Assembly (NCBI GenBank): GCA_031284585.1
Contig: JAITXT010000003.1
Location: 1 to 64,000 of the forward strand
Direction of reading: 5' to 3'
DNA length: 64,000 nucleotides
Origin: Acholeplasmatales bacterium
Lineage (GTDB): Bacteria; Bacillota_I; Bacilli_A; Acholeplasmatales; Acholeplasmataceae
Shown here piece after piece: positions 3,252-29,549 of the stretch. Position 1 is the first letter of the stretch. Each line of letters opens with the position of its first letter. Below the pieces are notes generated by a model. The model worked only from the letters and a program-made list of their open reading frames with translations. It ran no database searches and was not told where the DNA came from. The translations under genes were made by a program, and so were the position numbers.

Positions 3252-3256
3252 TAAAT

Positions 3257-3285: not shown

Positions 3286-3361
3286 GGAAAATGTCCTATT
3301 TTTTCAAAAAATACATTTATTTGTCAAATATTTAACTTTTTCGAGAAATTCAAGGTTATTT

Positions 3362-3370
3362 TGTTATAAT
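3362..3370 (+). promoter_or_regulatory. Extended -10 promoter for aroE-aroC-recG
   Basis: TGTTATAAT, an extended -10 (TGnTATAAT), lies 24 bp before the aroE start codon. No convincing -35 box stands 17 bp upstream. The ribosome binding site GGAGG follows at 3380-3384. Confidence 0.6.
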
Positions 3371-3394
3371 TATTAAAATGGAGGTTTAAAATAG

Positions 3395-9678: not shown

Positions 9679-11433
9679 TTATTCTTCATAATTCTTTTTC
9701 TGAGTATTAAATAACTTGCAATAAATACTATCTTTTTTCATCATTAAATTTTTATGAGAATCAAAATCCTCTATTACTCCCTCATTAATTACTAGAATTT
9801 TATCAGCAAACGTTGAACTACTCATTCTATGAGAAATAAATATTGAAGTTGAGTTTTTGACAAGTTCTGCGAATTTTTCATAGATTTCTGCCTCACTAAT
9901 AGGATCAAGGGACGCCGTTGGTTCATCGAGGATAATTAAAGATGCATCTTTTGCTAAACATCTTGCAATCGCCATTTTTTGAATTTGGCCTAAAGACATC
10001 TCAATTCCATTTTCTTCAAATTCCTTCCCATAAAAAGTATCAAGACCATCTTTATAACTATGAACTATTCTTTTAAAGTCAATTGAATCTAGTATTTCAT
10101 CTATTTGCGTATCGCTTTTCTGAAAAGAAATATTATCCCTTAAAGAGTAAGCAAATAGTTTGAAATCTTGAAAAACAGTTGAAATTTTATGGATATAAGA
10201 ACTATATTTATATTTTGAAATATCAATGTTATTAACATAAATTACTCCCTCTTCTAAGGGATAGAGTCTACATATCAATTTTATTAATGTTGTTTTCCCA
10301 GCTCCATTTAAACCAACAACAGATATTTTTTCCCCTTTTTTAATCGTAAAAGATATATTTTTTAAGACGTAAGTATCACTTTTTGGATATTTAAAGTTAA
10401 CATTTTCAAACTTAATTTCATCTATGCTATCCCGAAGATTTATTGTTCCGTCTTTATCATCTTCATCTAATAATAAAAGTTCCCGAAATGAATTTAGATA
10501 ATTTGCACATGAAACCAATTTAATGACACTTTGAACTCCATCTTCAAAGGAGGAAGCCATTTTAATGGCGGTTCCTAAGTATAAAGAAAAATTAGGAATA
10601 CCAAACTTCAAACTTAAACATTTTATAGATACATATAGATAAATTAAAAAATTTAATATAGTACTTGCAACAATAGTTAAAGAGCCGTATAAACTATTAT
10701 AAAAATTAAAAGAAAAAAATTCTTTAATAGTTTGTTTTTGAAATTTAGAAAATTCATTTCTAAGAACATCACCAATACTATAGAATCTAAAATCCTTTTC
10801 ATATTTTGGATTTAATAAGATATTCAAATAATATCCGGCTTTTCTATTGATAGGTATAATATTGCCGTAAAAACTAACGGTTTTTTTATAGTTTAGAAAG
10901 TAAATAAAAACTTTAAGACCAATAAAAAATAAAATAATAACAGGAAGAAAAACACCAATATTTAATAAAATAGATATGAAAGAAACAAGAGACGTAAATA
11001 AAATTAAGAGACTCTTAAGCGATGAGAATAATCCATAAATTGCTCCTTGATTACTCACCGCAAAGATTGCCTTTTCTTTCAAATCAAGATAATATGGATC
11101 TTCTAATTTATCAAAACTTGTATTCATCATCTTACGACCAAGTTCTCTTAGTATTAGATTATTTGCTACCATAAGCTCTATTTCGTATTTATTATTTAAT
11201 AAATTGGAAATAAGCACTATTAATACATTCATAAAAACAATGACTAGACTAATGAGCAATGAGTATTCAAAAGAAGAATTATTAGAAATTAGGGAATCTA
11301 ATATGTATTTTATTGAATATATTTCAAAAATAGTTTTAAAAACCTCTAAAATAGAAGAGAATAAAGTTAAGAAAATAAATTTCTTATCTATTTTAAAACT
11401 AACTTTTAGAAAGAGAAAAATAGTCTTAAACAT
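9679..11433 (-). CDS. ABC exporter half-transporter (permease-ATPase fusion), subunit 2
   Basis: 584 residues: a six-span transmembrane domain (about 1-310) fused to an ATPase domain. Walker A GLNGAGKTTLI is near residue 374, the signature is MSLGQIQKMAIARCL (leucine replaces the second-position glycine of LSGGQ), Walker B is LIILDEPTASLDP and the H-loop FISHRMSS. The ATG directly abuts the stop of the upstream homologue, whose last codons contain its GAGGAG ribosome binding site. The pair probably forms a heterodimeric exporter with one changed signature motif. Substrate unknown: lipid, peptide or drug are all possible. No precursor peptide gene or immunity gene is adjacent. Confidence 0.88.
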   Translation of the reverse strand: MFKTIFLFLKVSFKIDKKFIFLTLFSSILEVFKTIFEIYSIKYILDSLISNNSSFEYSLLISLVIVFMNVLIVLISNLLNNKYEIELMVANNLILRELGRKMMNTSFDKLEDPYYLDLKEKAIFAVSNQGAIYGLFSSLKSLLILFTSLVSFISILLNIGVFLPVIILFFIGLKVFIYFLNYKKTVSFYGNIIPINRKAGYYLNILLNPKYEKDFRFYSIGDVLRNEFSKFQKQTIKEFFSFNFYNSLYGSLTIVASTILNFLIYLYVSIKCLSLKFGIPNFSLYLGTAIKMASSFEDGVQSVIKLVSCANYLNSFRELLLLDEDDKDGTINLRDSIDEIKFENVNFKYPKSDTYVLKNISFTIKKGEKISVVGLNGAGKTTLIKLICRLYPLEEGVIYVNNIDISKYKYSSYIHKISTVFQDFKLFAYSLRDNISFQKSDTQIDEILDSIDFKRIVHSYKDGLDTFYGKEFEENGIEMSLGQIQKMAIARCLAKDASLIILDEPTASLDPISEAEIYEKFAELVKNSTSIFISHRMSSSTFADKILVINEGVIEDFDSHKNLMMKKDSIYCKLFNTQKKNYEE

Positions 11434-13236
11434 CTAAAGATTCTCCTCTTTATAATATTTTCCTTGAATATTAAACATTTCATAATACTTACCTTTTAAA
11501 TTCATTAATTCGTTATGAGTTCCGTATTCTAAAATACTAGCATTACCAATTAAAACAATATGATCACAAAACTTAGTCGAAGAAAGACGATGGGAAATAA
11601 AGATTGTTGTCTTATTCTTAGTAATTTTATCAAAATCTTCATAAATCTTTCCTTCCGCAAGAGCATCTAATGATGAGGTAGGTTCATCTAAAACAACAAG
11701 ACTATTATCTTTAACTAGAGCTCTTGCGATCGCAAGCTTTTGAATTTCTCCACCAGATAATTCTATTCCATCCTCATAAATAACTTTTAGCATATTTTCA
11801 TGATACCCATTTTTAAATGATTCTATTTTTTCATCAAGCCCCGTTAATTTAGCACTATATTTGGCTTTTTCAAGACTTATATCAGAAATATCGTTACCTA
11901 CAATATTTGATAAGATATCTATTGCATAGAGATTAACATCTTGAAATACAACACCTATTTTCTTAGATAATTCTACAATATCATAATCTAGAATGGATCT
12001 ACCATTTATTAGAATTTCTCCTTCTTCAGGAACTAAGAGTCCTAAAATTAATTTTAGTAAAGTAGTTTTCCCTGCTCCATTTACTCCCACAATTGCTAGT
12101 TTTTCTTTAGAAGATATTTTTAAACTTAAATCTTTGATTATGTAATTATCACTCCTTGGATATTTAAAAGAAACGTGATTGAGGATAACTTCAAAGTCAT
12201 CTAAATCGCTCTTATAATTACCTCTTTTTTGATTATAATTAGGTAAATCATCTACAAAGTTATAGTAAGTAGATGTAATTCTTAAATCTTCAATTGTTTT
12301 AGATAATCTAAAACCTATTGAAGTAGTAATTAAAGATAGTGAGGTTATAGCAGTAAGATAAAAAACTACATCTTCTAAGCCTAAATTTTCATAAAAATAT
12401 TCTCTCAAAACAAAATAATAACCTGTCCCACCTTGTAATAAGAGAAATAAAAGTCCAATAAGACTAATTTTAAAAGAATAATTATATATTTTCTTCTTAA
12501 ATTGTTTTTTCTCGTTTATTTGAATTAAATGTTTATCAAGTAAAGTAGCGGATAAATTATTAATTCTTAAATCTTTTCCATAGGTAAAATCAGAACTTGT
12601 TTTATTATAATAGTCTAATTTTCTTTCTAATCTACTTTCTTCTAGTCTCTTTTTATATTTATATTTTCCAACTAAGAAATTATTAATGAAAGAAAAAACG
12701 CCAGTTGCGAGGAGAGAAAGAAATACTAGAAAATTTAAATTGTAAAGAATTATACAAGTTAAAGAAAAAGTAATAAGTAGAGGAAGTAATAACTTCAAAT
12801 TATAAAAAGTTCCTTCAAATCCAACTTCTTCAGAATTTAAGGCAGTAATACTTGTTTGAACATAATCTAGAAATTTTGGATCTTCTACGTAAATGTAATC
12901 GACATCATGAAAAACAGTTAGTGCATCTTCAAATTTATTAAGCCTAATTTTTAGTGAATAAACACCAATAAGATTACTAAAAATAGTATTTAATAAATAT
13001 AATAGAAAAGAGATTAGAGAAACATAAATAATTATTTGAAGAGGTAATTCATCTATAAGTAATTTTTGAATAATAAATTTAGGAATATAATAAGAAAGAA
13101 TAGGGAGAACGCCTCCTGCAATAGAAGTTATTAGATAGAATAAATAAATCCTTTTTAATTTATATTTTTTTATCTCCTTAAAAACTCTAACTAATGTTTT
13201 AAGATAATAAACCTTATTTTTTGTTCCCTCACCCAT
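11434..13236 (-). CDS. ABC exporter half-transporter, subunit 1
   Basis: About 600 residues with the same design as its downstream partner: six membrane spans, then an ATPase domain with Walker A GVNGAGKTTLL, signature LSGGEIQKLAIARAL, Walker B LVVLDEPTSSLD and H-loop FISHRLSS. I prefer the start MGEGTKNK (ATG 13234-13236) because GGGGGG lies 4 bp before it; an ATG four codons upstream (13248) has no ribosome binding site. It is the first gene of a two-gene operon. The canonical signature here contrasts with the altered one in the partner, a common asymmetry of heterodimeric exporters. Confidence 0.87.
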   Translation of the reverse strand: MGEGTKNKVYYLKTLVRVFKEIKKYKLKRIYLFYLITSIAGGVLPILSYYIPKFIIQKLLIDELPLQIIIYVSLISFLLYLLNTIFSNLIGVYSLKIRLNKFEDALTVFHDVDYIYVEDPKFLDYVQTSITALNSEEVGFEGTFYNLKLLLPLLITFSLTCIILYNLNFLVFLSLLATGVFSFINNFLVGKYKYKKRLEESRLERKLDYYNKTSSDFTYGKDLRINNLSATLLDKHLIQINEKKQFKKKIYNYSFKISLIGLLFLLLQGGTGYYFVLREYFYENLGLEDVVFYLTAITSLSLITTSIGFRLSKTIEDLRITSTYYNFVDDLPNYNQKRGNYKSDLDDFEVILNHVSFKYPRSDNYIIKDLSLKISSKEKLAIVGVNGAGKTTLLKLILGLLVPEEGEILINGRSILDYDIVELSKKIGVVFQDVNLYAIDILSNIVGNDISDISLEKAKYSAKLTGLDEKIESFKNGYHENMLKVIYEDGIELSGGEIQKLAIARALVKDNSLVVLDEPTSSLDALAEGKIYEDFDKITKNKTTIFISHRLSSTKFCDHIVLIGNASILEYGTHNELMNLKGKYYEMFNIQGKYYKEENL

Positions 13237-13279
13237 TTGACCCCCCATATCTTAATCATTTTTAAAAAATGAATATTTA

Positions 13280-13318
13280 ATTATAACACTTAAATTTCAA
13301 AAAATTATAATTGAAATT
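13280..13318 (-). promoter_or_regulatory. Promoter and inverted repeat before the ABC exporter pair
   Basis: Minus-strand TGTTATAAT gives an extended -10 with the hexamer at 13280-13285. Immediately upstream is an inverted repeat, AATTTCAA (13293-13300), 10 nt, TTGAAATT (13311-13318). It covers the -35 area, so a regulator or operator there is plausible but unproven. Confidence 0.45.
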
Positions 13319-13424
13319 CTTAAATTATTCAAAAGATTAGAAAATAATCATAAAGATTCATGATTTTTTGGAGTTTTTAAATATTAAATAAAAAAGATAT
13401 TTGATTAATATACTAAAAATAAAT

Positions 13425-15311
13425 TTAAGACTGTGTTACTTGATTAAATATTTCTTTTAATGTTTTTAATACACTTACAAAATTAAGTGGTTTAGCAATA
13501 TGCCCATTCATTCCTGATGCAAATGCTCTATCTATATCTTCTCTAAATGCATTTGCAGTCATAGCAATAATAGGTACTTTTTTAGCATCTTCTCTATCAA
13601 GTGAACGTATAGCTACCGAAGAGTCATAACCATTCATATTAGGCATCATTATATCCATAAGTATGAGGTCATAATATCCAGCCTTTGCTTTTTTAAACTT
13701 ATTTAATGCATCTAATCCATCTACTGCTTCTTCTATTATAGCATTTGTATCTGCTAGTAACTCTGTTACAATCAATCTATTGATTTCAATGTCTTCAACA
13801 AGAAGTACTCTTTTACCAGTTAAATCAAATTCAAAAGTATCTTCTATGATTTCACTTTCTTCCTTACTATCAGAATTTAATTCTTTCGCAAGAGTTAAAT
13901 CAAAATAGAAATTAGAACCTTCTCCTAATTTTGTTTTAACTTCAATTTTAGATCCTGTTAAATTAACAATATGTTGAGAGATAATCAAACCTAAACCAGA
14001 ACCAGCATATTGCAATGAACCATTAGGATTATATTGAAAAGAAGAAAAGAGATTAGATAAAACATCATCACTAATGCCTATTCCTGTATCAATACATTCA
14101 ATATGATATTTTACAAAAAAATTTGTCTCTTCTTCAATGTTTATATTAAGTCTTACTTCTCCTCCACAAGGAGTGAATTTTACAGCATTTCCTAGTAAAT
14201 TTATCAATGCTTGTTTAATTCTTACTTTATCACCTATGACAATATTTTTAGAAACATCTTTAATACTTGGAAGAAAATTAATTTCTTTTTGTTCTGCTCT
14301 TACTTTGATTATCTCACATACTTCATTAACCGATTCATAGAAAGAAAATTCATCTTGAGATAGTTTAATCTTCTCTGCTTCAATCTTACTCATATCTAGA
14401 ATATCATTTAGTAGTCCAAGAAGATAATCAGATGCATTTTTAATTTCTGTTAATTGAAGAGTTGTATGCTCGTCATGTTCTTTTTTTCTAAGTATTTGTA
14501 ATAAACCTATAATTGCATTAAGAGGTGTTCTTATTTCATGGCTCATTCTTGACAAGAAAGAACTTTTTGCTTTCGATGCATTTTCCGCTATTACTATTTG
14601 ATTTTGTAATTCTTTTGTTCTATCATCGATAATTTTTTCTAATGTTAAATTTATTTTTTCTATTTTAGCACGGTGTTGATAATTACTCACAAACATTCTA
14701 TATAATAAAATAGAAACGAATATAGAAATACCTGTCATAATTAATAAATTAGTCCATAAATCCGTATTAATTAAGTTATTCCATGTTGAACTAGTTTCCC
14801 GATTGAAAAAAGCAAATAATACAACATAGATTAGACCAAAAGAACCAATAGATACTATTTCAATTGGTTTAATGATAAGAAATAAACCAGCTACCATAAC
14901 TACGATTATAAATGATTCAAAACCTCCATTTTGTTTAATATTTAAAGAACAAAATGCGAATTGAACGATAATATATATGTATAAGAAAGCAAAAACACAA
15001 TTATTTACTAATCTATCAGATACTTTATCTCTATGTTTTTTAAAATATGAAAAAATAGATAAGAATATAATAGCGGCTACGATATTGACAAGAGATAACA
15101 TGATAAAAAAGATGATTGTATTATCAAATTCGGAATCTCCAGCAGGACGAACCATATTTATGATTTGAAGAGATAATTCCAATATCAAAACATATAAAGA
15201 AAATACCCAAGCTCTGTGAAGGTTACTACTAGTTCTTTCTTTTTCAAAACCTGCAATTTCATCATTTTCTAAATTTCCGTATCCAAACAACCGTCTGATA
15301 ATTTTTTTCAT
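13425..15311 (-). CDS. Hybrid sensor histidine kinase with C-terminal receiver domain
   Basis: 628 residues. Six hydrophobic spans (about 35-53, 66-90, 103-122, 133-150, 152-170, 186-206) form a membrane sensor with short loops. A coiled-coil linker leads to the H-box MSHEIRTPLNAIIGL (phosphorylated His258), then an ATPase domain with INLLGNAVKFTP (N-box) and the glycine-rich SGLGLIISQHIV. The receiver domain has phospho-acceptor Asp553 in ILMDIMMPNMNGYD and Lys607 in HIAKP. No separate response regulator or Hpt protein is in the window, so the output partner is elsewhere. TATAAT on the minus strand at 15338-15343 is the likely promoter. Input signal unknown; substrate-like neighbours are the ABC exporters and the giant surface protein. 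Confidence 0.9.
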   Translation of the reverse strand: MKKIIRRLFGYGNLENDEIAGFEKERTSSNLHRAWVFSLYVLILELSLQIINMVRPAGDSEFDNTIIFFIMLSLVNIVAAIIFLSIFSYFKKHRDKVSDRLVNNCVFAFLYIYIIVQFAFCSLNIKQNGGFESFIIVVMVAGLFLIIKPIEIVSIGSFGLIYVVLFAFFNRETSSTWNNLINTDLWTNLLIMTGISIFVSILLYRMFVSNYQHRAKIEKINLTLEKIIDDRTKELQNQIVIAENASKAKSSFLSRMSHEIRTPLNAIIGLLQILRKKEHDEHTTLQLTEIKNASDYLLGLLNDILDMSKIEAEKIKLSQDEFSFYESVNEVCEIIKVRAEQKEINFLPSIKDVSKNIVIGDKVRIKQALINLLGNAVKFTPCGGEVRLNINIEEETNFFVKYHIECIDTGIGISDDVLSNLFSSFQYNPNGSLQYAGSGLGLIISQHIVNLTGSKIEVKTKLGEGSNFYFDLTLAKELNSDSKEESEIIEDTFEFDLTGKRVLLVEDIEINRLIVTELLADTNAIIEEAVDGLDALNKFKKAKAGYYDLILMDIMMPNMNGYDSSVAIRSLDREDAKKVPIIAMTANAFREDIDRAFASGMNGHIAKPLNFVSVLKTLKEIFNQVTQS

Positions 15312-15508: not shown

Positions 15509-18500
15509 TTAATAATTTAAAACTAAATTAGATAACAAGCAAGAATTTGAATAATTTGAAGTACCTATAATAGGTAATCCTTCGTATGTAATAACAATTT
15601 CAAAAGAACCAGTACTTGGAAGACTAGCTGAATCAATCACAACAACAGTATTTCCATTTTCAAGATTAAAAATTACAATTGGATGATTAGTTCCACTATA
15701 ATTCAACGAAATATAAATAACTCCACTTTCGTAATCTCCTAATAAACCTCCACCAGAGGAAATGATATTGTTTAGGAATAGACTTCTAAATGATAAATAG
15801 ATAGATGTAATTCCGCTAACTTCTTCTACTGTAGTCGTAACAGTTTTTTCATTACTTAATGGGTCAGATACTATAATAAGACTTCCGAAAATATCAACTC
15901 CGTTTCCACCATCAAATTGTGACATATCATAAGTTGAATCAACAACTATAAGTTCATCGGTATCGTTTAAATATTCCACAAAATCGTTAGTTCGATTTAA
16001 TTCTGGTAAACTTACCATAGCAAGTTTTCTAATAAAATTAACAGGATGTTCTGTGCCTCTATCATACATAAATGAGAGGAATGGATATTGAGCCATAGCA
16101 AGTATAAGCAAGTAATTAACAACTATTGTCTTTGATCTTGTATGAACAAGTGATGGAAGAATCGCAAAGAATGAATCAAAGTCATTTTGGATAGTTGTTG
16201 ATAAGTCACCTAAACCAACATCAAAGTTAGACATGAAGTCAGCAATTCCCCAAAGTTCATCAATAAATAAATCAGCTTTGTGATTTTTAGGGTCAGGATC
16301 TGAGATATCATAATAATTAGGATCAAATCCTAACCTTAGGTTACCTTCATTTATATAAGCAAATTCATTATGTGCAGTAATACCAGTATCGATAATACCT
16401 TTCGAAATTATTCTTCTAACAAGTGGACTTCTTTCAGCAAGTATCACAAACTTGTTTATAAGGGTCGCAGGAGAATTAAGTATTTTTTCTTCTAATACAT
16501 CAAAACTTTCTCCATCTGCTTCTAGAATAGTTAAAATATCAAATACAGAACTTATTTCACCAATCAATAAGAAATTAGAACCAGCTTTAGTAGTTGGAAT
16601 ATTATCCATTGATAGAGTAGGTAGACTTGTAATAAACGAATCCCCGCCAGATGAAGATTCAATCAAGGCTTTAGTAAATAAAGAATTCATTAATTCACCA
16701 GAATTTCCAATATTATTCTGTAATAAAGTTGAATTTAAAGTAAGGAATGTATCTTGAGAGAAAGATTCACTCAAGCTAAGAGAAGATGAACCAAATAATC
16801 CTTCAACATTAGCAATGAAATTTGCTAAAACGTAATGTTTAATAACTAACTTAGTATCTAAATCATATGCTTCTCTAAACTCAGCTAAATCTCTATAAAC
16901 ATATAAACCAATCGATTCATCATATAAGATAGATTGAGAAATCATCGCATCAACAATTATCGATTCAACGTTAATTATATCACCAAGAAGGTTAAGACTA
17001 ATGCCATCAAATAACGATTGAATATTTGAAGAAATTTCAAAAATAGAACTAGAAGGTCCATCAGCCATAAGAAGTAAAATATCATACATTTTCACTAATT
17101 CAATATGTTTGATACGTTTCTTGACATCAATAGAATCAACTAGCGCAGATCTTGGAATATTTCCATTATAATCACTTAATACATCACTTTCGCCAATATT
17201 CTTATACATAACATCAGAAATATAACTTTCAATTAAAGGTGAATTTAAGTCTAATATGCTTTCAAAATCACTCAAGGTCATACTATTAGCATCAAACGTT
17301 GTAATGTCTCCTATTATTGCATAAGCAGACCATAAAGCAACTATTTCACTGTAATCAATCATTTGATAATGTCTTGAACTACTTACATGATCTATTGAGT
17401 CTACAGAAAGAGTAATTTCATCTAAATTATTTACAACACAATTAATAAGAGTATAAATATAAATAGAAGTAAATAGAATATCTAATTTCTCTTCAGTAAT
17501 AGTACCAAAAATACCTAAATCAAAATCAATATTTGAGAAATCATCAATTCCAAGTACATCAATACTATTAAACAAGTCTCTTATTTCAACTCTACTTAAT
17601 CTAGAAGTAACTGCACTATCAAATGCATAATGATTTAAAACAAATTCTTCTTTACTGAATTTATCTCCTGCAAATTTAGAAATAGTTTCCTCGCTAGTTA
17701 AAGTAAATGATAACAAATTCCAAACAATTACGCTATCTAGTAAAACTCCTAAATCATCTTCTGGAAATTCCCCGTACTTATGTGAATTTCCTAAGTTTAA
17801 AATCTCAGTTAATGAAAAATCCATATTGTCCATTTCATCAAATCCTAGTAAAGTTAGAGAAATAAATAATTTTCTAATTTCTGATTTTTTAATTCTATCA
17901 TCTTCAATACCAGTATTTCCTAATGCATCAGAAGGAATAAATACTATTTTCATATCTGTAACATCGAAAGATTCACTTACAACACTATTAATTTTTGAAC
18001 TAATAGAATCGGACATCATAGCTCTTGAAATTAAAATATAGAAATAATTAGAATTTAAGAGTTTTGAGAATTCATCATTTGAAGGATCATTTATATCAAT
18101 TAGAGAAGTAATTAAATTCAAACCATAACCTAATTCATCTCCTCTACTTATATCTAGAGCTTTAAATGCAATAACTAGGTTCTTTATTTCCACCTTAGTA
18201 ATTAGATCTTTTTCTACTCCAGAAGTACCAAGTAAATCACTTGGAACTTTTATTGATACATTACTAAAATCAATACCAGAAGAACCTAATTTATCAGAAA
18301 GAAAATCTTTAATCTTGTTATCTAATGCATCTTGTTGGAAAAATTTAGCTATAACTGAATAAATGATACTAGATGCTAACAATCTATCAAAGTCATCTTT
18401 ACCATCGCTATAATTCTTACCTACAAGATCTGTAATTAAATCAATTCCAATTTCAGGTACATCACCATCTTCAGTAAATCCTAAGATCTTTAAATCTCTT

Positions 18501-21500
18501 ATCAACTGTCTAATTTCAAATTCTTTAATTAATTTAGTATCTTCTTCAAATGCTTCTTTTGGAAATTCCAACCAAAGTGGATCTGCATCTTCTAAAAGAG
18601 AAGATAATTTAGATACTCCAAATTCTCTTAATTGACTAGATTTAAGAATATTAGTAACAATAGAACTCAAAGTAATAGTAGAAAGTAAATAATGAATCGG
18701 ATCACTATTAGGTGTATTACTATCTAATTTAAGGATAGTATAAATTCCAAAACCACCTTCTAAATCAATAACTGATAATAGATTAATAAGATTATAGATC
18801 TCTGATTTCTTGATTATTCCATTTTCAAGAGCACTTTTTTCAATTACAAATATTTCTTCATCAACTTCAAATGGAAGAAATCCAAGTTTATTAATAAGTT
18901 CTGCATATTTAGCCTCTCTTCCCGTAGTATTTAAAATAATATCAAAAATACCTAAGAGAACTTTAGAATTAAGCATGTATTCGATATGAGATTGATGGAA
19001 TTCATTGTTAGATCTCTCAAGGAGAGTTTTAGAAATTGATTGAATAGAACTAAATCCACCAGATAATAGATTACTAAAATTAATTTCAACTAAACTTAAA
19101 ATAAATTTCTTAAATTCGACTTTCGAGATATTTCCATCTTCAAATAGACCATATCTTGGATTAGTGAAATTAATAGCATCTTCCGCGAAACTAATATCAG
19201 CCCCACTATCATTAAGTAAATTAGCGACTAAATTAGTAAGTAAACTAGAAAGTTTAGTACTCTTTAAAAGATCAGAAAAAATATTCATTGTAAAATCAAA
19301 ATCCATCAATGCATCTACAAAACCAGTATTATAGATCTTTTCTTGAAGAAAATTAAATTTACTAAAATTACCAAATTCATCTAGGCTACTAACTTCTAAT
19401 GACTTAAATAAGCCAACAGTTTCTTTTAATATTTCTTTATCAAAATAAACGCCATCTGTATCTTTTGTTCTATTTAAAATATTTACAACCAGATCATTGT
19501 AATTGATATCTAAATCAGTAAAATTACTTAAAGCACTTGTAAAAGTATTTTCAACTAAATCTACCAATAAGGTTTTAATACCATCATCATATATTAATTG
19601 GGAGATTGTTTGTTTTAAAATATTAGAATTAAATAAAGAATCAATAGCTGTATTACGGAAATAAACATTAATATACTCAACAATAGCGTCATTATCAAAA
19701 CTTAGAACTTTAGCATTAAGTTTTAAATCTTTAAGACCAACTAATAAAAGAGTTATTTCGCTTTCCGTTAAATTAGTATAATGTAAAGCAGAATCAGATA
19801 ATTCAACATTTAAAGCATTTGATAAAAATCCTCTTAAGGCAACTTGGTTAGAAGGTTTTTCTAAATTGAACCGTAAAACCTTATTTAGTAATTTATTATC
19901 TCCTAAAATAGCAATTTGAGAATTATTAAGGGCATTGAAATTATCAACAAAATAAGATAATTCTCTTTCACCTAATTCTTTTATAGTGTGATCTCTACCA
20001 ATAAGAACATCAACAAATCCAAGAACGTTATTTACTGTAGCAAAAATTTCATTTGGATCAAGCATTCCATCCGAATTATATAAGGAATTAGGAACGTCAA
20101 TTTTTAAATTAGAGTCACCTAATTTAAGAGAGAAACCTTTATTTGCGAGATTAGTAACCGTATTACTAACAATCAAAGTATTTAAAAGACAATTTACATT
20201 AGGATTATCTTTTAATTCAAAAATAATTCCTAAATTAACTTCATTCAAATTAAGCACAATACTTGATAAATCATGAATAGAAGTTCCAACATATTTTTCA
20301 AGGGATACTGAGGTTACTAATCCAAAAATACTACCTAGTATATCGTCAATTTCTTTTTTCCAAATACTACTATTACTACTAGCATCTAGTAACTTATCAG
20401 GAATACTTAAAGGTATATTGGCAAGAGAGTTTTGTACAAAATCACCTTTTACAAGAGAGGCAATTAATTCACTTATAATTGGAATACTATTTTCTTTATA
20501 GATATAACTTTCTATAACTCCACTCTCTAATAATTCTATGATATTTAAATCAAAAAGTAATCTATCAGTTAAATCGTCCATATTTACAATTGATTTATAA
20601 TTGATTTGGGTTCCAATTTCAGTAACAATTGCTTTCGAAAAATTAAGAGCATAACTTATAAACTCGGAATAATTAATTTCTTTAGGAATTTCTATAAAAT
20701 CAGTAATAAAATCTAATTTACCGTTTTCATTCATATTTTGAACTATTGGATCAACAAAATTTAAAAAATTAAGGGAAGTTAGATTGTAATCAATTTCCTG
20801 AAATATTTCACTATCACAATTACTAATTGCAGTTAGTACTTCTTTTAAAGTAATTTTTTGATTGACTAATTTAGAAATTGACATTTCACCATTAATTAAT
20901 ATTACTCCATCAATTATTTTAATTAGATCTGAACCTATGTTTTCGGATACCGTTGTATCATCTAATAAAAGATGCAGATATCCATTTATTTCTTCATCTT
21001 TAACCGCTATATCTACTATTATGCCACTAAAATTTACAAGTATATTATTAACCAAAGCACTTTTATCGAAAACAATAGAGATTATATCTTTAAGTTCTTT
21101 TTGATGAGTTGTTAATAAATCTTCCACAAAAAGACCAACATTACCATCAAATAATGCTTGAATCGCAAAGTTAGTAATATTACTATATATATCCATTATA
21201 TTTTCTACTTCATCTTTAATAACTACATCATCAACTAAATTTTCAACTTTTTCATTCAATTCTTCTTCTAAACCAAGAGATGCAATTCCAAAGTCTATTC
21301 CAATAGGAATCACGTTTTCAACTAATTTATCATTCAAAATTACATCTACGATGTCATTAAAATAAAGATAATACTTTTCAGAAATTAAACTATCGGTATT
21401 TGATTCATTTAAATTTGAAATAAGTTCAAAAAAGATCGAACAATCTTCACCTAAAATAGCACTAACTACTCGACTAAGATTTCCAATTTCACCAGATTCA

Positions 21501-22993
21501 CCAATGAAAAAATCAGGATCATCAATTATAAATTCTAAATTTTCTTCAAGATAATTTTTAACATTTTCCTCAGGGATCCAAGAAATCAAATTTCTTACTT
21601 CTGAAATTTCAGGTACGATTGAAATAACTGTATTAAGAAGTAATAATAATTTTAAATCTTTAATTTGTTCAAAAGTTCCTACTAATAAATTTCTAATCTT
21701 AATACCGTTTGTTTCTAAATAATCTAAGTCAAAATTAGATAAAGCTTCAAAAAGTGCTAATAGTTCATCTAATTTACCATAATCAAGTAAATTATCTACA
21801 ACTTTATAAAGGGTTGTTAAATCCTCACCTAAATCTATTTCTGATAATAATTTTAAATAAGAAGAGAATTTTTCGTTATTCAATAAGTCATCAATTGTTA
21901 AATCACCTACAATAGGATCAGATAGAAAGGAGGAAATTAAACCAGGAGTAAGAGAAGCATTAAGAGCTGCTGGAATTAAATCAGTAAAAATTGTGGATTT
22001 AGATAATCTATTAAAGATTTCATTTAAAGAACCACTATCTTCTTTTGATATATTCTTATAATCAACAAGGTTACCTTCTATCACCACATTTAAAATCTCA
22101 TTGATATTTTTTAATTCACTTCCTAAAGAGAATTTCTTATTAAATCCAATATTTACATCAAAAAAAGCATTAAACAAAGAATCTTTAAGTCCAAAATAAA
22201 GAGGAGACACTCCTTTTTTAGAAACATTTTGAACTAAACCAATAAGAGATAACATATCACTATCTAAAATAGGAGCACTTAAATTAGAACCACTACTTAA
22301 ATATGCAGTTTCACTTTCTTGAACTAATTCAACTGGTAAATTGTTTACTTTCTCAAAATCAATATTATCAACAACAGAAATTAAAATAACTAATGGTAAT
22401 ATGTAAATTAAACCAGCAAATAAACCGCTTAATATACCAATTCCACCGCCACCTAATCTGCTTAAAAAAGATTTTTTATATCTTGAAGTTTCTTTTTTAT
22501 TGATAGGAGCAGAATTTCCATAAAGAATTCTTTTTTTAGTAACTTCATTATAGATAATATTTTTATTAATAGCTTTCCAGATAGGACGACCGATGATAAG
22601 TCTTAATAAAAATTTTAAAATTGGATATAAAATAAAGAACAAAACTATTTTTAGAGCTAAATCAACAAATCCAAGAATAATATTTGCGATATTAATATCT
22701 CTTAAAAGAGGTTCATAATTTTCAATTGTTACAAGAGCCGCAGAATAATATCTATTTGATAGATCATGGATAAAGGTATAAAAATTATCAGGTTTTACAA
22801 ACCATCTAAAAGAAAATAGCGAAATTAGCAAAAGAGAAATAGCAGCAGCAATTAAGTTAAAAACAAAAAAGAACAATGACTTTTTAGAACCCTTTTTTAA
22901 TCCACCTAGAAAATATATTAGCACAAACAAACCTACTAATAACCATTGTGCTATGGAAATTAAATCCCCCCAATTTGATATTATTTCTTGCAT
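15509..22993 (-). CDS. Giant CvpA-like membrane-anchored repeat protein (2,494 aa)
   Basis: Residues 1-210 look like a CvpA-type membrane domain: hydrophobic spans at about 13-31, 40-62, 103-134 and 184-206, with the glycine-rich RLGGGGIGILSGLFAGLIYI entering the last one. Lys/Arg-rich loops (31-38, 130-178) predict that everything after residue 208 is outside. The remaining 2,280 residues are acidic, rich in Leu, Ile, Ser, Asn and Asp, with no catalytic motif I recognise. They contain divergent repeats of about 80-107 residues with the core I.K.EI..L...L..L, clearest at about residues 1280-1970. There is no LPXTG, no second membrane span and no signal peptide. The start has an AAGGAGG site and its own promoter. 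Adhesin, cell-shape or envelope scaffold are possibilities; function unknown. Confidence 0.85.
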   Translation of the reverse strand: MQEIISNWGDLISIAQWLLVGLFVLIYFLGGLKKGSKKSLFFFVFNLIAAAISLLLISLFSFRWFVKPDNFYTFIHDLSNRYYSAALVTIENYEPLLRDINIANIILGFVDLALKIVLFFILYPILKFLLRLIIGRPIWKAINKNIIYNEVTKKRILYGNSAPINKKETSRYKKSFLSRLGGGGIGILSGLFAGLIYILPLVILISVVDNIDFEKVNNLPVELVQESETAYLSSGSNLSAPILDSDMLSLIGLVQNVSKKGVSPLYFGLKDSLFNAFFDVNIGFNKKFSLGSELKNINEILNVVIEGNLVDYKNISKEDSGSLNEIFNRLSKSTIFTDLIPAALNASLTPGLISSFLSDPIVGDLTIDDLLNNEKFSSYLKLLSEIDLGEDLTTLYKVVDNLLDYGKLDELLALFEALSNFDLDYLETNGIKIRNLLVGTFEQIKDLKLLLLLNTVISIVPEISEVRNLISWIPEENVKNYLEENLEFIIDDPDFFIGESGEIGNLSRVVSAILGEDCSIFFELISNLNESNTDSLISEKYYLYFNDIVDVILNDKLVENVIPIGIDFGIASLGLEEELNEKVENLVDDVVIKDEVENIMDIYSNITNFAIQALFDGNVGLFVEDLLTTHQKELKDIISIVFDKSALVNNILVNFSGIIVDIAVKDEEINGYLHLLLDDTTVSENIGSDLIKIIDGVILINGEMSISKLVNQKITLKEVLTAISNCDSEIFQEIDYNLTSLNFLNFVDPIVQNMNENGKLDFITDFIEIPKEINYSEFISYALNFSKAIVTEIGTQINYKSIVNMDDLTDRLLFDLNIIELLESGVIESYIYKENSIPIISELIASLVKGDFVQNSLANIPLSIPDKLLDASSNSSIWKKEIDDILGSIFGLVTSVSLEKYVGTSIHDLSSIVLNLNEVNLGIIFELKDNPNVNCLLNTLIVSNTVTNLANKGFSLKLGDSNLKIDVPNSLYNSDGMLDPNEIFATVNNVLGFVDVLIGRDHTIKELGERELSYFVDNFNALNNSQIAILGDNKLLNKVLRFNLEKPSNQVALRGFLSNALNVELSDSALHYTNLTESEITLLLVGLKDLKLNAKVLSFDNDAIVEYINVYFRNTAIDSLFNSNILKQTISQLIYDDGIKTLLVDLVENTFTSALSNFTDLDINYNDLVVNILNRTKDTDGVYFDKEILKETVGLFKSLEVSSLDEFGNFSKFNFLQEKIYNTGFVDALMDFDFTMNIFSDLLKSTKLSSLLTNLVANLLNDSGADISFAEDAINFTNPRYGLFEDGNISKVEFKKFILSLVEINFSNLLSGGFSSIQSISKTLLERSNNEFHQSHIEYMLNSKVLLGIFDIILNTTGREAKYAELINKLGFLPFEVDEEIFVIEKSALENGIIKKSEIYNLINLLSVIDLEGGFGIYTILKLDSNTPNSDPIHYLLSTITLSSIVTNILKSSQLREFGVSKLSSLLEDADPLWLEFPKEAFEEDTKLIKEFEIRQLIRDLKILGFTEDGDVPEIGIDLITDLVGKNYSDGKDDFDRLLASSIIYSVIAKFFQQDALDNKIKDFLSDKLGSSGIDFSNVSIKVPSDLLGTSGVEKDLITKVEIKNLVIAFKALDISRGDELGYGLNLITSLIDINDPSNDEFSKLLNSNYFYILISRAMMSDSISSKINSVVSESFDVTDMKIVFIPSDALGNTGIEDDRIKKSEIRKLFISLTLLGFDEMDNMDFSLTEILNLGNSHKYGEFPEDDLGVLLDSVIVWNLLSFTLTSEETISKFAGDKFSKEEFVLNHYAFDSAVTSRLSRVEIRDLFNSIDVLGIDDFSNIDFDLGIFGTITEEKLDILFTSIYIYTLINCVVNNLDEITLSVDSIDHVSSSRHYQMIDYSEIVALWSAYAIIGDITTFDANSMTLSDFESILDLNSPLIESYISDVMYKNIGESDVLSDYNGNIPRSALVDSIDVKKRIKHIELVKMYDILLLMADGPSSSIFEISSNIQSLFDGISLNLLGDIINVESIIVDAMISQSILYDESIGLYVYRDLAEFREAYDLDTKLVIKHYVLANFIANVEGLFGSSSLSLSESFSQDTFLTLNSTLLQNNIGNSGELMNSLFTKALIESSSGGDSFITSLPTLSMDNIPTTKAGSNFLLIGEISSVFDILTILEADGESFDVLEEKILNSPATLINKFVILAERSPLVRRIISKGIIDTGITAHNEFAYINEGNLRLGFDPNYYDISDPDPKNHKADLFIDELWGIADFMSNFDVGLGDLSTTIQNDFDSFFAILPSLVHTRSKTIVVNYLLILAMAQYPFLSFMYDRGTEHPVNFIRKLAMVSLPELNRTNDFVEYLNDTDELIVVDSTYDMSQFDGGNGVDIFGSLIIVSDPLSNEKTVTTTVEEVSGITSIYLSFRSLFLNNIISSGGGLLGDYESGVIYISLNYSGTNHPIVIFNLENGNTVVVIDSASLPSTGSFEIVITYEGLPIIGTSNYSNSCLLSNLVLNY

Positions 22994-23026
22994 GCAGACC
23001 TCCTTACGACAATTAATGACTACTCT

Positions 23027-23115: not shown

Positions 23116-24003
23116 TTAAGAAAGTTTGGGATTTACGTGAACCATAATGTGTAAAACTTCTTCAAAAGTGTTTTCTATTTGTGAATGTACATTTTCCGCA
23201 ATTTCGTGTGCTTTAATTAAACTTAGATTTGCATCAACTCCAATCTCAACATCAATATAAACATCTTCCATATTAGTTCTAACTCTCAAAACATCAACTG
23301 AAAGTACTCCTTTTATTGATAAAATAAAGTCTTTATACTTGAGAATAGTTTCTTCGTTTGGAGATTTATCAGTTAAAAAAGCAACACTATCTCTAAATAC
23401 ATCAATTGCTAATTTCATAATAAAGAAAGCAATTAATATAGCAGCTAGAAAATCAAAATAACGTAACCTCTTATCAATTACTGATAAAAAAATTCCAATA
23501 ACTCCTGAAAGGGTTGCGAAAATATCTAAAAAATGATTTTTTGATTCATTTTTTAGTGTTGGATTATTGCCGAGACGTTTACTAGATTTAAGTAGATAGG
23601 TTGCCATAAATATTTTAACAACTAAAGTTATTCCACTTGAAATAATAGCTAGATAATTCATGGGCTCAATATCTGAATTATTTGAAAATTCAATTATATT
23701 AATTATTCCATCATAGAAAATAGAAATAGAAGTTAAGAAAAATATCAAAGAAAGTATTAAATTTGCGATTCCTTCGTATTTCGCATGACCATATGGATGA
23801 TCTTTATCTGGAGCCTTTTTCGATAATTTAACACATACTAATAACACTATACTAATGATTATATCAGAAGAACTATTAATGCCATCACTAAGTAATGCAA
23901 GAGAAGAAAATATGAGTCCAGTTGATATTTTAAAAATAGATAGTAAAATATTTAATACAAATACAATTATAATAGGTCTTAAGGTTATTTTTTTATTGTT
24001 CAT
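23116..24003 (-). CDS. Cation diffusion facilitator (divalent metal exporter)
   Basis: 295 residues. Six membrane spans are followed by a cytoplasmic ferredoxin-like domain ending near VHVNPKLS. CDF exporters expel Zn2+, Mn2+, Fe2+ or Co2+ in exchange for protons. The second span has SDGINSSSD and the fifth NHFLD, so Asn-x3-Asp stands in both sites where zinc exporters usually have His-x3-Asp or Asp-x3-Asp. The loop DKDHPYGHAKYEG is a standard CDF landmark. The ATG overlaps the dnaE stop (ATGA), making it the last gene of flavodoxin-dnaE-CDF. The substituted sites suggest manganese or iron rather than zinc, which is inference. Confidence 0.9.
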   Translation of the reverse strand: MNNKKITLRPIIIVFVLNILLSIFKISTGLIFSSLALLSDGINSSSDIIISIVLLVCVKLSKKAPDKDHPYGHAKYEGIANLILSLIFFLTSISIFYDGIINIIEFSNNSDIEPMNYLAIISSGITLVVKIFMATYLLKSSKRLGNNPTLKNESKNHFLDIFATLSGVIGIFLSVIDKRLRYFDFLAAILIAFFIMKLAIDVFRDSVAFLTDKSPNEETILKYKDFILSIKGVLSVDVLRVRTNMEDVYIDVEIGVDANLSLIKAHEIAENVHSQIENTFEEVLHIMVHVNPKLS

Positions 24004-26960
24004 TTTTTCACTCTCCCAATTTTTTCTACTGTATAAGATATTTTTCCTTGATAAGTAGATATTCTTATATCAAAAATTAATGCATCTTCAGCTATTAATT
24101 CTTCTAAACTAATTAAACTTTCTCTGAAACAAACAGCTTCAAAAAACTCTGAATCATCAGAAATTGTTAAAAAAGCCATGTCTTCTCCCGTTTTGGTTTT
24201 TATTTTCTTAATCTTGTTTTTATCAATAAAACCAAGAACTCTTCCTGATAAACCTCGCTTAATAAAAGAAGAGACATCTAATACATTAGGAGAATTTTTT
24301 AAAAAATCACTATAACTATCAATTCCTCGATAAAATATATTAAATCCAAAGGTTTGATATTCGTATTTTCTTAAATCTGTAAATAAATATTCTTCTTCGT
24401 TATTAATTACTACTTTCATTCCAACATAAGAAATACTATAATGTGAATTTTCAAAAAGTGATTTAATTAAAGTTCTGTGATTATACGAGAATGTGTCAAA
24501 TGCTGAACCATGAATTAAACTTTTGTATTGAACTTCCGTTAGTCTTTGAATTCTATCTTTAAAATCGTTTAAATTTTGAAATTTTCTTATATTAGCTTCG
24601 TCAACTATTTCCTTAGCTATTTCTTTAGAAATGTCTTTTATTAAAAATAAAGGAAGATAAAAATTGTGTTTATCATCAAAATAATAACTAAAATTTAGAT
24701 TATTAACACTTGGTTTAACAATATTATATCCTCTTTTCCTAATCTCTTTTAAGATATTATTTATTTCTACTCCATTGCTAGAGTTCTCTAATGTAACACT
24801 TATATAAATCTCAAAGTAATTTGCTTTTAAAAAAGCTTGTTCATAAACAATCATTGAATAGGCAACCGCATGGCTTTTATTAAACCCATAACCTTGAAAT
24901 TCTTCTATTTCACCAAAAATACGAGTAGCTTCTTCTAAATTAAATCCATTGTTAAACGCTCTTTCAATAAATTTATCTTTTTCTTTTTCAATTAAACTTG
25001 AATTCTTTTTAGAAATAGCTCTTCTAAAGATATCTGCCTCTTTAAGTGTATAATTCGCAACTATTTTAGCTATTTGCATTATTTGTTCTTGAAATAAAAT
25101 AATTCCATAAGTTCCTCTTAAACAATCATTTAATTTGGGATGAAGAACTCTAGCTTTTCTTATGTTTTCTTTGACCGCTATAAAATCATTGATATTAGCA
25201 GTAATCCCTGGTCTCTCAAAGGAAATTAAAATTACAATATCTAAAAATCTGCTTATTTTAAATCTTTTTAATAATTCTAAACCTTGAGAAGTCCCAATTT
25301 GAAAGATATCACTATTGGTTGCTTCATTAATTAGTGATAAAGTCTTATCATCTTGAAGATCTATTTTACTTAATTGAAAATCAGGATGAACTTTCTTTAC
25401 TTCCTCACTTATTCTATTAATTTTGGTTAAAAAATTATTCGAAAGAAGATCTATCTTAAGAAAACCTATCTTTTCAACGATTTCTTTATCATATTCCATT
25501 TGTCTAATTTTTGAAGCCTTATTAAAATAAGGAACTTTTCCCACAAAAAAATCATTTAAAATAACTATTCCAGCAGGGTGATTAGCAACTTCGGAAGTTG
25601 ATTTTTTAATTTTATCAAATATATTTTTTAAATAGATAGTTTCTTTGTCATACGCATCAACAACATTATTACTAATCGAGTTATAAATACTATTTATTTT
25701 ACTTGGAAGTACTTTTTTCTCTAAACAAATTTTAGAAAATATTTCTTTCGAATCTTTTTTCTTGAAGACAGAAATTTCATAACATTTTTCTTCCCCATAT
25801 TTAAGAACTAGATAGTCAATTACTTCTTTTCTCCTGTTATCCGCAATATCTATATCTATATCTGGTAATTCAGTTCTAGAAGTGTTCAAAAATCTTTCAA
25901 ATAATAAATCATATTCTAGAGGATCAACTGCTATTATTCCTATAGAAAATGCAACTAAAGAAGATACAGCTGAACCTCTTCCTGGTCCTACTGGTATATT
26001 ATTTTTGGCGCAATACAAAACAATATCATAAACGATAATAAAATAAGAATCAAATCCCATAGTATGTATTATTTCTAATTCACTCTCTAGACGTTCAAGA
26101 TATTTATCGCTTATTTTACCGTTTAATCTTTTGTTTAGTCCTACATAACAGAGATTTTTTAAATATTCCTCAACACTTATATCTTTAATCCAAAAAATAT
26201 CAGGTAAGAATAGTTTACTATTATAAAAATTCTTGTAGGTAATTTTATTTAAAAAATCTAAATTAAAATCAAATTTAGTAGATTTTCCAAGGAATAATTT
26301 CTCTAAATTAGAAAGTTCAATATAATTATAGTCATTATAGGAATTATTATTTGTATTTAAAGATATTTTTTCAAGTATACTATAGGCTTCAATTTCATTA
26401 GAATCAAGATATTTTATTAAGTGGACAGGGAAGAAATTACTTTCAAGTGCACTATTTCTAGCAATTAAATCTTCTAGTTCAAATAAAACATTTTCAACAT
26501 ATAATAACTCGCTTAAGATTACTCCATAATAGAAAATTTTAGATTTAGAAATAATTCCCGAAAGATTACTAATAAATAACGAATCGCTACTATTTTTAAA
26601 TGAATTTTTACTAAAAGTAAAGATAACAGCTAAATGTGAAAGAGATCCTAAATCCTCAAATATTAAATCCCTTTTATGAACATTAATTTCGATTAATTGT
26701 TTAATACCTTCATCATCTAAAGCATAAAAAATTAAGTCATAAAGATATCCACTAATTTCAATTCTTTTGGATAATCCAATTACTCCCCTCATATTAAGTT
26801 CATTTGTTTTAGTTAGAAAAGTAAAAAAAGATGATAAATTATCATCTATTAACGAAATAATATTAATATTATCTGTCTTTGCTTTCACAAGTAATTCGTC
26901 TAGCGAGATTAAACTACTAGACATTGAATTACTTGTTACTACATTTAGTATTTTTTTCAT
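24000..26960 (-). CDS. dnaE: DNA polymerase III alpha subunit, DnaE type
   Basis: 986 residues, shorter than the usual 1,050-1,160. C-family polymerase landmarks are GPGRGSAVSSLVAF (about 325-338), the catalytic PDIDIDIADNRRKEV (366-380), NHPAGIVI, and GFNKSHAVAYSMIVYEQAFLKANY. A C-terminal OB-like domain follows. The N-terminal PHP region (1-230) has lost the usual opening LxxHSxYSLLDG histidines: it starts MKKILNVVTSNSMSSSLISL. It lies 3 bp after flavodoxin and overlaps the CDF gene. In low-GC Gram-positives DnaE works next to PolC, which is not in this window. Confidence 0.92.
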   Translation of the reverse strand: MKKILNVVTSNSMSSSLISLDELLVKAKTDNINIISLIDDNLSSFFTFLTKTNELNMRGVIGLSKRIEISGYLYDLIFYALDDEGIKQLIEINVHKRDLIFEDLGSLSHLAVIFTFSKNSFKNSSDSLFISNLSGIISKSKIFYYGVILSELLYVENVLFELEDLIARNSALESNFFPVHLIKYLDSNEIEAYSILEKISLNTNNNSYNDYNYIELSNLEKLFLGKSTKFDFNLDFLNKITYKNFYNSKLFLPDIFWIKDISVEEYLKNLCYVGLNKRLNGKISDKYLERLESELEIIHTMGFDSYFIIVYDIVLYCAKNNIPVGPGRGSAVSSLVAFSIGIIAVDPLEYDLLFERFLNTSRTELPDIDIDIADNRRKEVIDYLVLKYGEEKCYEISVFKKKDSKEIFSKICLEKKVLPSKINSIYNSISNNVVDAYDKETIYLKNIFDKIKKSTSEVANHPAGIVILNDFFVGKVPYFNKASKIRQMEYDKEIVEKIGFLKIDLLSNNFLTKINRISEEVKKVHPDFQLSKIDLQDDKTLSLINEATNSDIFQIGTSQGLELLKRFKISRFLDIVILISFERPGITANINDFIAVKENIRKARVLHPKLNDCLRGTYGIILFQEQIMQIAKIVANYTLKEADIFRRAISKKNSSLIEKEKDKFIERAFNNGFNLEEATRIFGEIEEFQGYGFNKSHAVAYSMIVYEQAFLKANYFEIYISVTLENSSNGVEINNILKEIRKRGYNIVKPSVNNLNFSYYFDDKHNFYLPLFLIKDISKEIAKEIVDEANIRKFQNLNDFKDRIQRLTEVQYKSLIHGSAFDTFSYNHRTLIKSLFENSHYSISYVGMKVVINNEEEYLFTDLRKYEYQTFGFNIFYRGIDSYSDFLKNSPNVLDVSSFIKRGLSGRVLGFIDKNKIKKIKTKTGEDMAFLTISDDSEFFEAVCFRESLISLEELIAEDALIFDIRISTYQGKISYTVEKIGRVKK

Positions 26961-27470: not shown

Positions 27471-29549
27471 TTAATCGTACTTTTCTTTCTTAAAGTATAA
27501 GTAAAGAGAGGATATTGCCGCAAGTATCAAAGAACCAATTGAAAAATAATATTCACTTAAGATAGGAGTCTTACTAAAAGGTTCAATTTCAATATTTCTT
27601 GAAACGATTGTCGTATTTCCTCTTAAATCTGTTACAGCATAAAACACCTTTTTAGTTCCAGGAGATAAAAAATTAATATTTTTAGGAAAATAATCAATAT
27701 TACATGATGTTTCATCTTCATAACTAATTCCCTCAAAAATATCAAATTCGGTATTAAATTTTTTAATGATATCATGCGCATATACACGTGGGGCAAATAA
27801 ATCATCTACATAGACAATAAGAATTTTAGAATTATATCCCATGAATTCATCATAAACCTCATATAAAACTTGATACTTCCCAATTTGAAAATAATTAACT
27901 TCTGGCTTAATTAAGACGTTTTCAGTTGTTAGATAAGTCACATTATCACTAACAGAAATAATATAACTTAAATAATTAATTTCTTCCGAATTAATCATGA
28001 CTACTATAGACTCACTACTTAATTCTAAAGAAGGTGGAATTATATCTACAATTAGTATTTCTACTAGAATAATTGTGGTATTAGAAGATGAATCTTTAAC
28101 AGAAACTACTATTTCATAACTTCCAACTTCCTTATAATCTATATTCATATCATAAGCGGTAAAGATTAAATTATTTACAGGTGTATAATTATCAGAATAA
28201 GTAAAATAGCCACTTAAATTTTTTCTGGTGAAATCAGATATTACAATATCATGGACTTGAGTTATGATTGGAGATATATTATCAACAACATATAAATAAG
28301 TATTTAAACTAGCTGTATTTTTAGATTTATCGGTTGCTGTAAAAGATAACTGATAGGTACCTACTACATTAATATTAAACTTACAATCAATTTTTATCGC
28401 GATATCACTAGGATCATAATAATTATCTACTACTTCAAAATAATTAATTAAAAAAGGTTCAACGTCAAAGACATCAAAAATAAGATCTGTCTTTATACTA
28501 ATAGAGGGCGCGATATCATCCACAACACTAACTTTTAATGTTTTAATAGCCTCATTTAAAGAACTATCCCTAAGCAAAAATGTCACTTGATAATCTCCAA
28601 TATAAGAACTATCAATATTATGAAATGTTAAACAATCATTAATAGTTAACAAATTATAATTATCACTTACATAAAGAATATAAGATAGAAGAAAATCACT
28701 ATCAATAGTAGTAAATACTCTTATGGTCTTAGGATTTGGTTTAAGTTCGATAATAGGTTTTGTAGTATCTACAAGTAAAAAATAATCATCTAGGATTGTT
28801 TCATTTAATGATTGATCTCTAGCTATAACCGTAAACGGGTAAATACCTATATTTGCATAATCAATATAATCATCTAGAATAAGAATAGTAACTACGGTGT
28901 TGTAATTATCTTTAATTGTAAAATAATTTCTTAAATCGATAATCTCATTTACCTCACCTATAAGTTCTTTTTTAAGAGTTATAGAAGGTGGTATATCATC
29001 AATTACATTTACAAATGATTCACATGATGAGACGTTTCCAGATGGATCGGTTGCTACATAAATTATTTTATATGTTCCAACTACTTTATTGTTTACTCTA
29101 GTAGCATCGACATGTAAAGTTAATTCTTCAAACTTGTAGTAGTTATCAATTACATCAACACCAGCAAAATAATTTGTTACTTTCCCATCTAGGGGAATAG
29201 TAAAACTAGGAACTAAAATAAAAGTAGGAGGAGTTCTATCTAAAATTCTAAACTTTACAGTTATCGTATTTCTTAAATAATCAAAACTTGGATAAACTAC
29301 CCTGTACCTAATGTTATATTCTCTTATTCTATTCGTATTTACATCAAGAAGAGAAGTGAATTCTACACCTCTTTCATAATACATAAGAGGATCGAATACT
29401 TCTTCATCGTCCATGAAAAGGTGTGCCGATGGCAACTCAAAATAAGGTTCAGGACTCTCTCCTAACATAATATCAATAACCGTATTTTCCCAAGTAACAT
29501 TTAAATTATTCGTTGCAAAAAGTGTAATAATTAAAAAAATAAACCTCAT
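27471..29549 (-). CDS. Surface protein with seven Ig-like repeats and C-terminal anchor
   Basis: 692 residues. A short signal sequence (MRFIFLIITLFATNN) is followed by seven repeats of about 80 residues, each opened by a D-x-x-x-P-x-[IL] motif (DRTPPTF, DDIPPSI, DTTKPII, DDIAPSI, DNISPII, DIIPPSL, DLFAPRV) and closing with G.Y...Y.A.D.S.N. This is the pattern of bacterial Ig-like domains of extracellular proteins (DUF5011/HYR-like). A single span at about 668-686 followed by KKEKYD anchors it, without LPXTG. It is the last gene of the mgtE-to-rlm cluster. Likely adhesion or envelope structure; no enzyme domain is visible. Confidence 0.82.
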   Translation of the reverse strand: MRFIFLIITLFATNNLNVTWENTVIDIMLGESPEPYFELPSAHLFMDDEEVFDPLMYYERGVEFTSLLDVNTNRIREYNIRYRVVYPSFDYLRNTITVKFRILDRTPPTFILVPSFTIPLDGKVTNYFAGVDVIDNYYKFEELTLHVDATRVNNKVVGTYKIIYVATDPSGNVSSCESFVNVIDDIPPSITLKKELIGEVNEIIDLRNYFTIKDNYNTVVTILILDDYIDYANIGIYPFTVIARDQSLNETILDDYFLLVDTTKPIIELKPNPKTIRVFTTIDSDFLLSYILYVSDNYNLLTINDCLTFHNIDSSYIGDYQVTFLLRDSSLNEAIKTLKVSVVDDIAPSISIKTDLIFDVFDVEPFLINYFEVVDNYYDPSDIAIKIDCKFNINVVGTYQLSFTATDKSKNTASLNTYLYVVDNISPIITQVHDIVISDFTRKNLSGYFTYSDNYTPVNNLIFTAYDMNIDYKEVGSYEIVVSVKDSSSNTTIILVEILIVDIIPPSLELSSESIVVMINSEEINYLSYIISVSDNVTYLTTENVLIKPEVNYFQIGKYQVLYEVYDEFMGYNSKILIVYVDDLFAPRVYAHDIIKKFNTEFDIFEGISYEDETSCNIDYFPKNINFLSPGTKKVFYAVTDLRGNTTIVSRNIEIEPFSKTPILSEYYFSIGSLILAAISSLYLYFKKEKYD

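Follow-up and report, generated by a model that had tools for sequence, protein, structure and literature searches.

In the MarP family of serine proteases, a CvpA-like membrane domain bears an extracytoplasmic C-terminal domain. Canonical CvpA (Colicin V production protein, PF02674) is a stand-alone protein of about 160–250 residues, which in enteric bacteria is required for deoxycholate resistance (PMC6705877). Mycoplasma bovis has an enlarged ‘CvpA family protein’ of 1,398 bp (PMC4045577, table); at about 465 residues it is longer than canonical CvpA but not giant, and its likeness to the protein studied here is one of annotation and length. A further group for comparison is formed by the LPXTG and lipoprotein repeat adhesins of Gram-positive bacteria and mycoplasmas, with their tandem surface repeats of variable copy number.

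Here we describe a gene on a 64,000-nucleotide stretch of DNA from an Acholeplasmatales bacterium, the whole of which is referred to below as the window. The product joins a CvpA-type membrane anchor to a stalk of helical repeats that is predicted to face outward, and it belongs to a widespread family, an architecture that we hold with high confidence. The giant anchor shares with CvpA its four spans, a G-x-x-RG motif after span 1, a glycine-rich span 4 and, at the level of the family, profile homology, but in the giants the CvpA domain carries 1,000–4,500 extracytoplasmic residues. In place of the protease domain of MarP, this cargo is a helical repeat array. The giants resemble the repeat adhesins in their tandem surface repeats and variable copy number, whereas their anchor is polytopic and N-terminal, LPXTG is absent, the C-terminus is free and the repeats are helical rather than Ig-like. 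A search of a partial open-access collection for accounts of giant CvpA proteins from these bacteria returned nothing relevant. An anchor of this kind is already known; neither the repeat nor its pairing with the anchor appears to have been described in the available sources.

The gene and its surroundings

The giant gene is a complete ORF of 2,494 codons with an ATG start (15509–22993, minus strand). Direct reading of the sequence showed AAGGAGG, a strong ribosome-binding site, a few bases 5′ of the ATG (22994–23005, minus strand). In several homologs, such as L033, L034 and L046, the mechanical ORF call opens with NEKGGI, a translation of the ribosome-binding site, and the protein really starts at the MPS that follows. 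The full protein had no NCBIfam match, and its sole Pfam match, DUF3015 (E = 0.03), missed the cut-off and was dropped as an identity. Neither Pfam nor NCBIfam assigned the protein to a protease family, and sequence and hydropathy gave no LPXTG followed by a hydrophobic span and a basic tail at the C-terminus. The preliminary description of this DNA had noted the lack of LPXTG and of known enzyme motifs, and this holds; nor did the whole protein match a named family.

Upstream of the gene lie a cation diffusion facilitator transporter (23116–24003, minus strand), whose gene directly precedes the giant gene in many Acholeplasmataceae, and the DNA polymerase III alpha gene dnaE (24000–26960, minus strand), also in conserved synteny. 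Many members of this family keep the four genes in the order flavodoxin, dnaE, cation transporter and giant gene, and outside it the neighbours differ. Because the synteny is seen only within Acholeplasmataceae, it probably reflects shared ancestry rather than a functional link, and since the neighbours vary elsewhere they say little about what the giant protein does. By sequence reading only, the giant genes L131 and L107, from genus-level group g11, lie upstream of acetyl-CoA carboxylase-type genes and not behind dnaE. A second candidate surface protein, with Ig-like (PF16403) and HYR domains (27471–29549), is encoded in the window four genes upstream of the giant one.

Directly downstream is a hybrid sensor histidine kinase with a receiver domain (13425–15311), followed by two ABC exporter genes (9679–13248). 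The exporters would fit an anchor seated in an export machine, with the solenoid serving exported proteins or lipids as a chaperone or docking arm outside the cytoplasm, and the conserved acidic and aromatic positions of the stem described below agree with such a role. However, the kinase and exporters (9679–15311) are not conserved beside the giant gene in relatives, where the conserved upstream neighbours are dnaE and the cation transporter, and a repeat number that varies among species suits a stalk better than a machine part. We therefore regard a secretion or assembly scaffold as improbable.

The N-terminal anchor

Hydropathy placed four membrane spans at about residues 8–35, 37–67, 96–138 and 180–216, giving an anchor of residues 8–216 (22346–22972, minus strand), and no convincing further span after residue 216. 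The four hydrophobic segments described earlier, with none beyond them, were thus borne out. Family alignments likewise contained the four spans.

The window protein alone did not match the Pfam CvpA model (PF02674). Among the anchors of close relatives, 13 of 29 matched weakly (best 1.3e-4), and the alignment of Acholeplasmataceae anchors was a weak match to CvpA as well. These weak matches would be expected of an unrelated four-helix domain that resembles CvpA only through its membrane composition. Against this, CvpA was matched by 21 of 41 anchors drawn from across the class (best 1.2e-9), and hhalign aligned the class-wide anchors with the CvpA profile at 96–97% probability over 175 columns, covering all four spans. 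The comparison set comprised E. coli CvpA and stand-alone CvpAs from the same order; a multi-span transporter used as control reached 1.7%. Anchors and CvpA also agreed in the G-x-x-RG after span 1 and in the glycine spacing of span 4. With a class-wide match over every span, shared motifs and a clean control, an unrelated anchor is very improbable. One of the 41 anchors weakly matched the MarP model NF033740 (7.8e-4, NCBIfam), and Pfam and NCBIfam found no trypsin-like protease domain after the anchor.

The anchor is best read as a CvpA-superfamily domain, as judged from the family profiles. The CvpA identity proposed earlier for this region stands at the level of the family but is not supported by the window protein taken alone. 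At 2,494 residues, the giant lies far beyond the length of stand-alone CvpA; it does not count as a CvpA protein but as a multidomain one that includes a CvpA-superfamily domain.

Orientation in the membrane

Loops 1 and 3 of the anchor were basic in all 29 members compared, and the stretch after span 4 was acidic in 29 of 29. By the positive-inside rule, therefore, both termini would be outside the cell. Cysteine content pointed in the same direction. The ectodomains of the Acholeplasmataceae homolog set contained 2 cysteines in 72,764 residues, compared with 816 in 120,257 residues (0.68%) of neighbouring proteins; the ectodomain of the window protein has 5. Giants outside this core set had about 0.2% cysteine (56 of 24,515 and 88 of 42,000 residues), below the 0.68% of the neighbours but not absent. 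Exported proteins in such bacteria commonly avoid cysteine. Loop charges and the near-absence of cysteine together argue strongly that the repeats lie outside the cell, and both the outward orientation and the basic cytoplasmic loops proposed in the preliminary description are supported.

We considered an intracellular scaffold, with the repeats on the cytoplasmic side arranging the membrane or cytoskeleton. Helical solenoids are common in cytoplasmic scaffolds, and the best, insignificant, fold matches of the giant protein were importin-like and HEAT proteins. The 29 of 29 charge pattern and the exclusion of cysteine make this arrangement hardly credible. Many repeat arrays finish within ~40–60 residues of the C-terminus, so that the outward-facing array would have no second anchor.

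Repeat array, stem and predicted structure

A repeat HMM was iterated from the repeats of the window protein over 29 proteins (the window protein and 28 homologs) and held 353 copies at convergence. In the window protein it found seven significant copies of ~80–100 aa between residues 1064 and 1850, with i-E values of 1e-7 to 3e-17. All on the minus strand, these are copy 1 at residues 1064–1131 (19601–19804; i-E 1.4e-7), copy 2 at 1259–1350 (18944–19219; 9.7e-9), copy 3 at 1369–1447 (18653–18889; 6e-12), copy 4 at 1470–1549 (18347–18586; 5e-17), copy 5 at 1573–1657 (18023–18277; 3e-17), copy 6 at 1686–1762 (17708–17938; 5e-17) and copy 7 at 1774–1850 (17444–17674; 1e-12). An eighth copy at residues 1863–1924 (17222–17407, minus strand) was marginal (i-E about 0.01–0.04), and non-significant copies lay near residues 1158–1252, 1945–2019 and 2130–2206. 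Ectodomain controls, shuffled five times and reversed, gave zero repeat domains, so the internal repeats suspected from the first reading are confirmed. Seven of the positions then listed (19120, 18800, 18515, 18195, 17880, 17590 and 19760) fall inside significant copies; 17350 is marginal, and neither 17105 nor 20060 reaches significance by itself.

The core motif I-x-K-x-E-I-x-x-L, in relaxed form, occurred five times in the window protein, compared with 0.24 expected by shuffling and a maximum of three in 500 shuffles. Across the repeat family the consensus reads approximately L..P....(I/V)...E(I/L)..L..AL..LG....L....L.S.I....IS; a single glutamate in it is invariant and a single serine nearly so. 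The D-G-x-I-x-K-x-E noted in several copies is real in some, but only its E, together with the distal S, is conserved family-wide. Its likeness to an EF-hand or dockerin loop did not survive: the window protein had no such Pfam match to E = 10, 40 repeats searched against Pfam gave no EF-hand or dockerin match, the structure search returned no EF-hand fold, and a single acidic position is conserved. The EF-hand/dockerin reading was accordingly rejected. The homolog L121 has a lone weak EF-hand_6 match (16 residues, E 0.015). Pfam has no model for the repeat.

Between anchor and repeats is a conserved stem, predicted to be all-helical (residues 231–1060; 19814–22303, minus strand). In an alignment of 37 homologs, F274, D275, F278, E293, S333, W472, D567, E595, D624, E689 and P770 were near-invariant. 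The C-terminal region (residues 2061–2494; 15512–16813, minus strand) is largely lineage-specific, with only ~90 aa clearly common to the relative in L035 (blastp). AlphaFold2 modelled residues 1–1060 as nearly all helical (mean pLDDT 79, pTM 0.51); for three repeats in a row it predicted one helical unit bridged by short strands (pLDDT 80, pTM 0.80). An extended stalk is suggested, with moderate confidence, by these predicted helices.

Foldseek found nothing significant in the PDB (best E 0.18, TM 0.09; triple repeat, E 1.3), and a HEAT/ARM alpha-solenoid assignment was accordingly not made. Sequence profiles likewise detected no solved relative. A tape-measure or other viral origin was rejected, because Foldseek matched the models to no viral fold and the chromosomal synteny around the gene is conserved.

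Distribution and evolution of the family

We searched for homologs, as the preliminary description had recommended, in 101 genomes (the window’s own and 100 relatives). Homologs occurred in 34 of these genomes and in 12 of the 26 sampled genera, with E down to 1e-137, and the family extends across Acholeplasmataceae and related families. Homologs ranged in length from about 1,200 to >4,450 residues; frames uncut by contig ends ran from roughly 1,500 to >4,000 residues, apart from a shorter paralog of 1,215. A scan of named genomes put the group in Acholeplasmataceae, with Peloplasma aerotolerans M4Ah (homolog L088) and Tenericutes bacterium MO-XQ among the carriers.

A genome-contig scan with the whole giant protein as query gave no match, and an anchor alignment of 18 rows proved too diverse as a search query; an alignment of closer anchors succeeded. 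With the Acholeplasmataceae anchor profile, 90 of 395 genomes of the class matched, mostly through frames of 1,000–4,800 residues, although a few of these 90 matches are CvpA frames of ordinary length. A repeat profile built from several families was applied to 392 genomes drawn from the phylum and matched 54, in families f1, f3, f5, f12, f16, f19, f21, f23, f24 and f32; among the matches listed, the repeats sit in giant frames, all in the window’s class. Giants retrieved by their repeats alone had the four-span N-terminal anchor in 11 of 11 cases. Phytoplasma-like genomes of the same family (genus g7, 0.6–0.9 Mb) gave no repeat match. In family f9, the giants L118, L119 and L120 (2,960–4,800 residues) have a CvpA-type anchor without a recognisable copy of the repeat; their array may be of another kind or have diverged strongly. 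Judged from these profiles, the anchor-plus-repeat design recurs in ten or more families of bacteria around Acholeplasma, in what is apparently an undescribed and widespread family of giant surface proteins.

Close homolog pairs had dN/dS values of 0.07–0.18 in anchor, stem and repeats alike; the gene is under strong purifying selection. Repeat identity within single proteins had a super-period of two repeats (lag 2) in L031, L032, L044 and L045 and of seven (lag 7) in L036, and copies in L047 were up to 100% identical. Such species-specific super-periods and near-identical copies point to recurrent tandem duplication as the driver of copy number. In the window, repeats at the DNA level are only short and diverged, and its array is therefore old. 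Giant anchor genes stand in adjoining tandem pairs in L125, L138 and L110, pointing to local gene duplication. In MO-XQ and in genome G035 the gene has a single in-frame stop, in different places: TAA at codon 326 (L043:5180–13132) and TAG early in the anchor (L041, anchor just 5′ of 12444, minus strand), suggesting independent loss or sequencing error. With stops in two related genomes, the gene is not indispensable everywhere.

Function and significance

In our preferred reading, a four-helix anchor of the CvpA superfamily, made of the first ~215 residues, would sit in the cell membrane and have its two ends on the outer side. The other ~2,280 residues, an acidic, nearly cysteine-free and all-helical array made up of the conserved stem and then tandem repeats of ~100 residues, would stand out from the cell as a stalk held at a single end. 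Tandem duplication would enlarge or shrink the repeat number, so that stalk length and distal surface differ between species. Such a stalk would most likely serve to attach the cell to surfaces or to its neighbours, or to build a protein coat over the membrane. For this explanation as a whole, an anchored extracellular helical stalk with an adhesive or coat role, we estimate a probability of roughly 0.5; the adhesive or coat function taken by itself falls a little short of an even chance. The earlier proposal of an envelope scaffold or adhesin anchored by CvpA fits the architecture, but no adhesive or ligand-binding domain was detected in the giant protein. The gliding proteins of Mycoplasma (Gli349/Gli521 type) are another kind of giant to be considered; Peloplasma, which carries a homolog of the window protein, has been described as non-motile (PMC11122141).

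The stalks might instead form a dense acidic layer, a brush that protects or stiffens the membrane and partly replaces the cell wall without binding any partner. FtsW/RodA (PF01098) was absent from 68 of 90 anchor-bearing genomes and from 159 of 305 others (Fisher p 9e-5, relatedness ignored), and the enteric requirement for stand-alone CvpA in deoxycholate resistance (PMC6705877) agrees with a protective role. However, that statistic takes no account of relatedness, and some of the 90 matches are ordinary-length CvpA frames. Moreover, FtsW/RodA was encoded by 22 of the 90 (146 of the 305 others), including genomes G118 and G069 with repeat-bearing giants, and wall-less phytoplasma-like and other small genomes are without the giant family. 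The family is commoner in wall-less genomes, not confined to them; since walled relatives carry it, it is not simply a wall substitute, and wall replacement as the sole function is weakened. We consider the brush unlikely. Our ranking of functions would thus place adhesion or coat first, the protective brush next, and a secretion scaffold lower.

A broader version of the anchored stalk is possible, though we hold it only tentatively: the CvpA domain may be a general outward tether for a new helical repeat fold, used class-wide by wall-less and small-genome relatives of Acholeplasma, in which duplication-tuned stalks would form the main protein coat or adhesion organelle.

The giant protein ranks with the largest products encoded in genomes of only 1–2 Mb, yet its repeat has neither a Pfam model nor a detectable solved relative. 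The family suggests that the conserved but poorly understood CvpA domain can serve as an outward-facing anchor. It offers a concrete handle on how surfaces are built in wall-less bacteria outside the mycoplasmas, and homologs in cultured strains make it testable.
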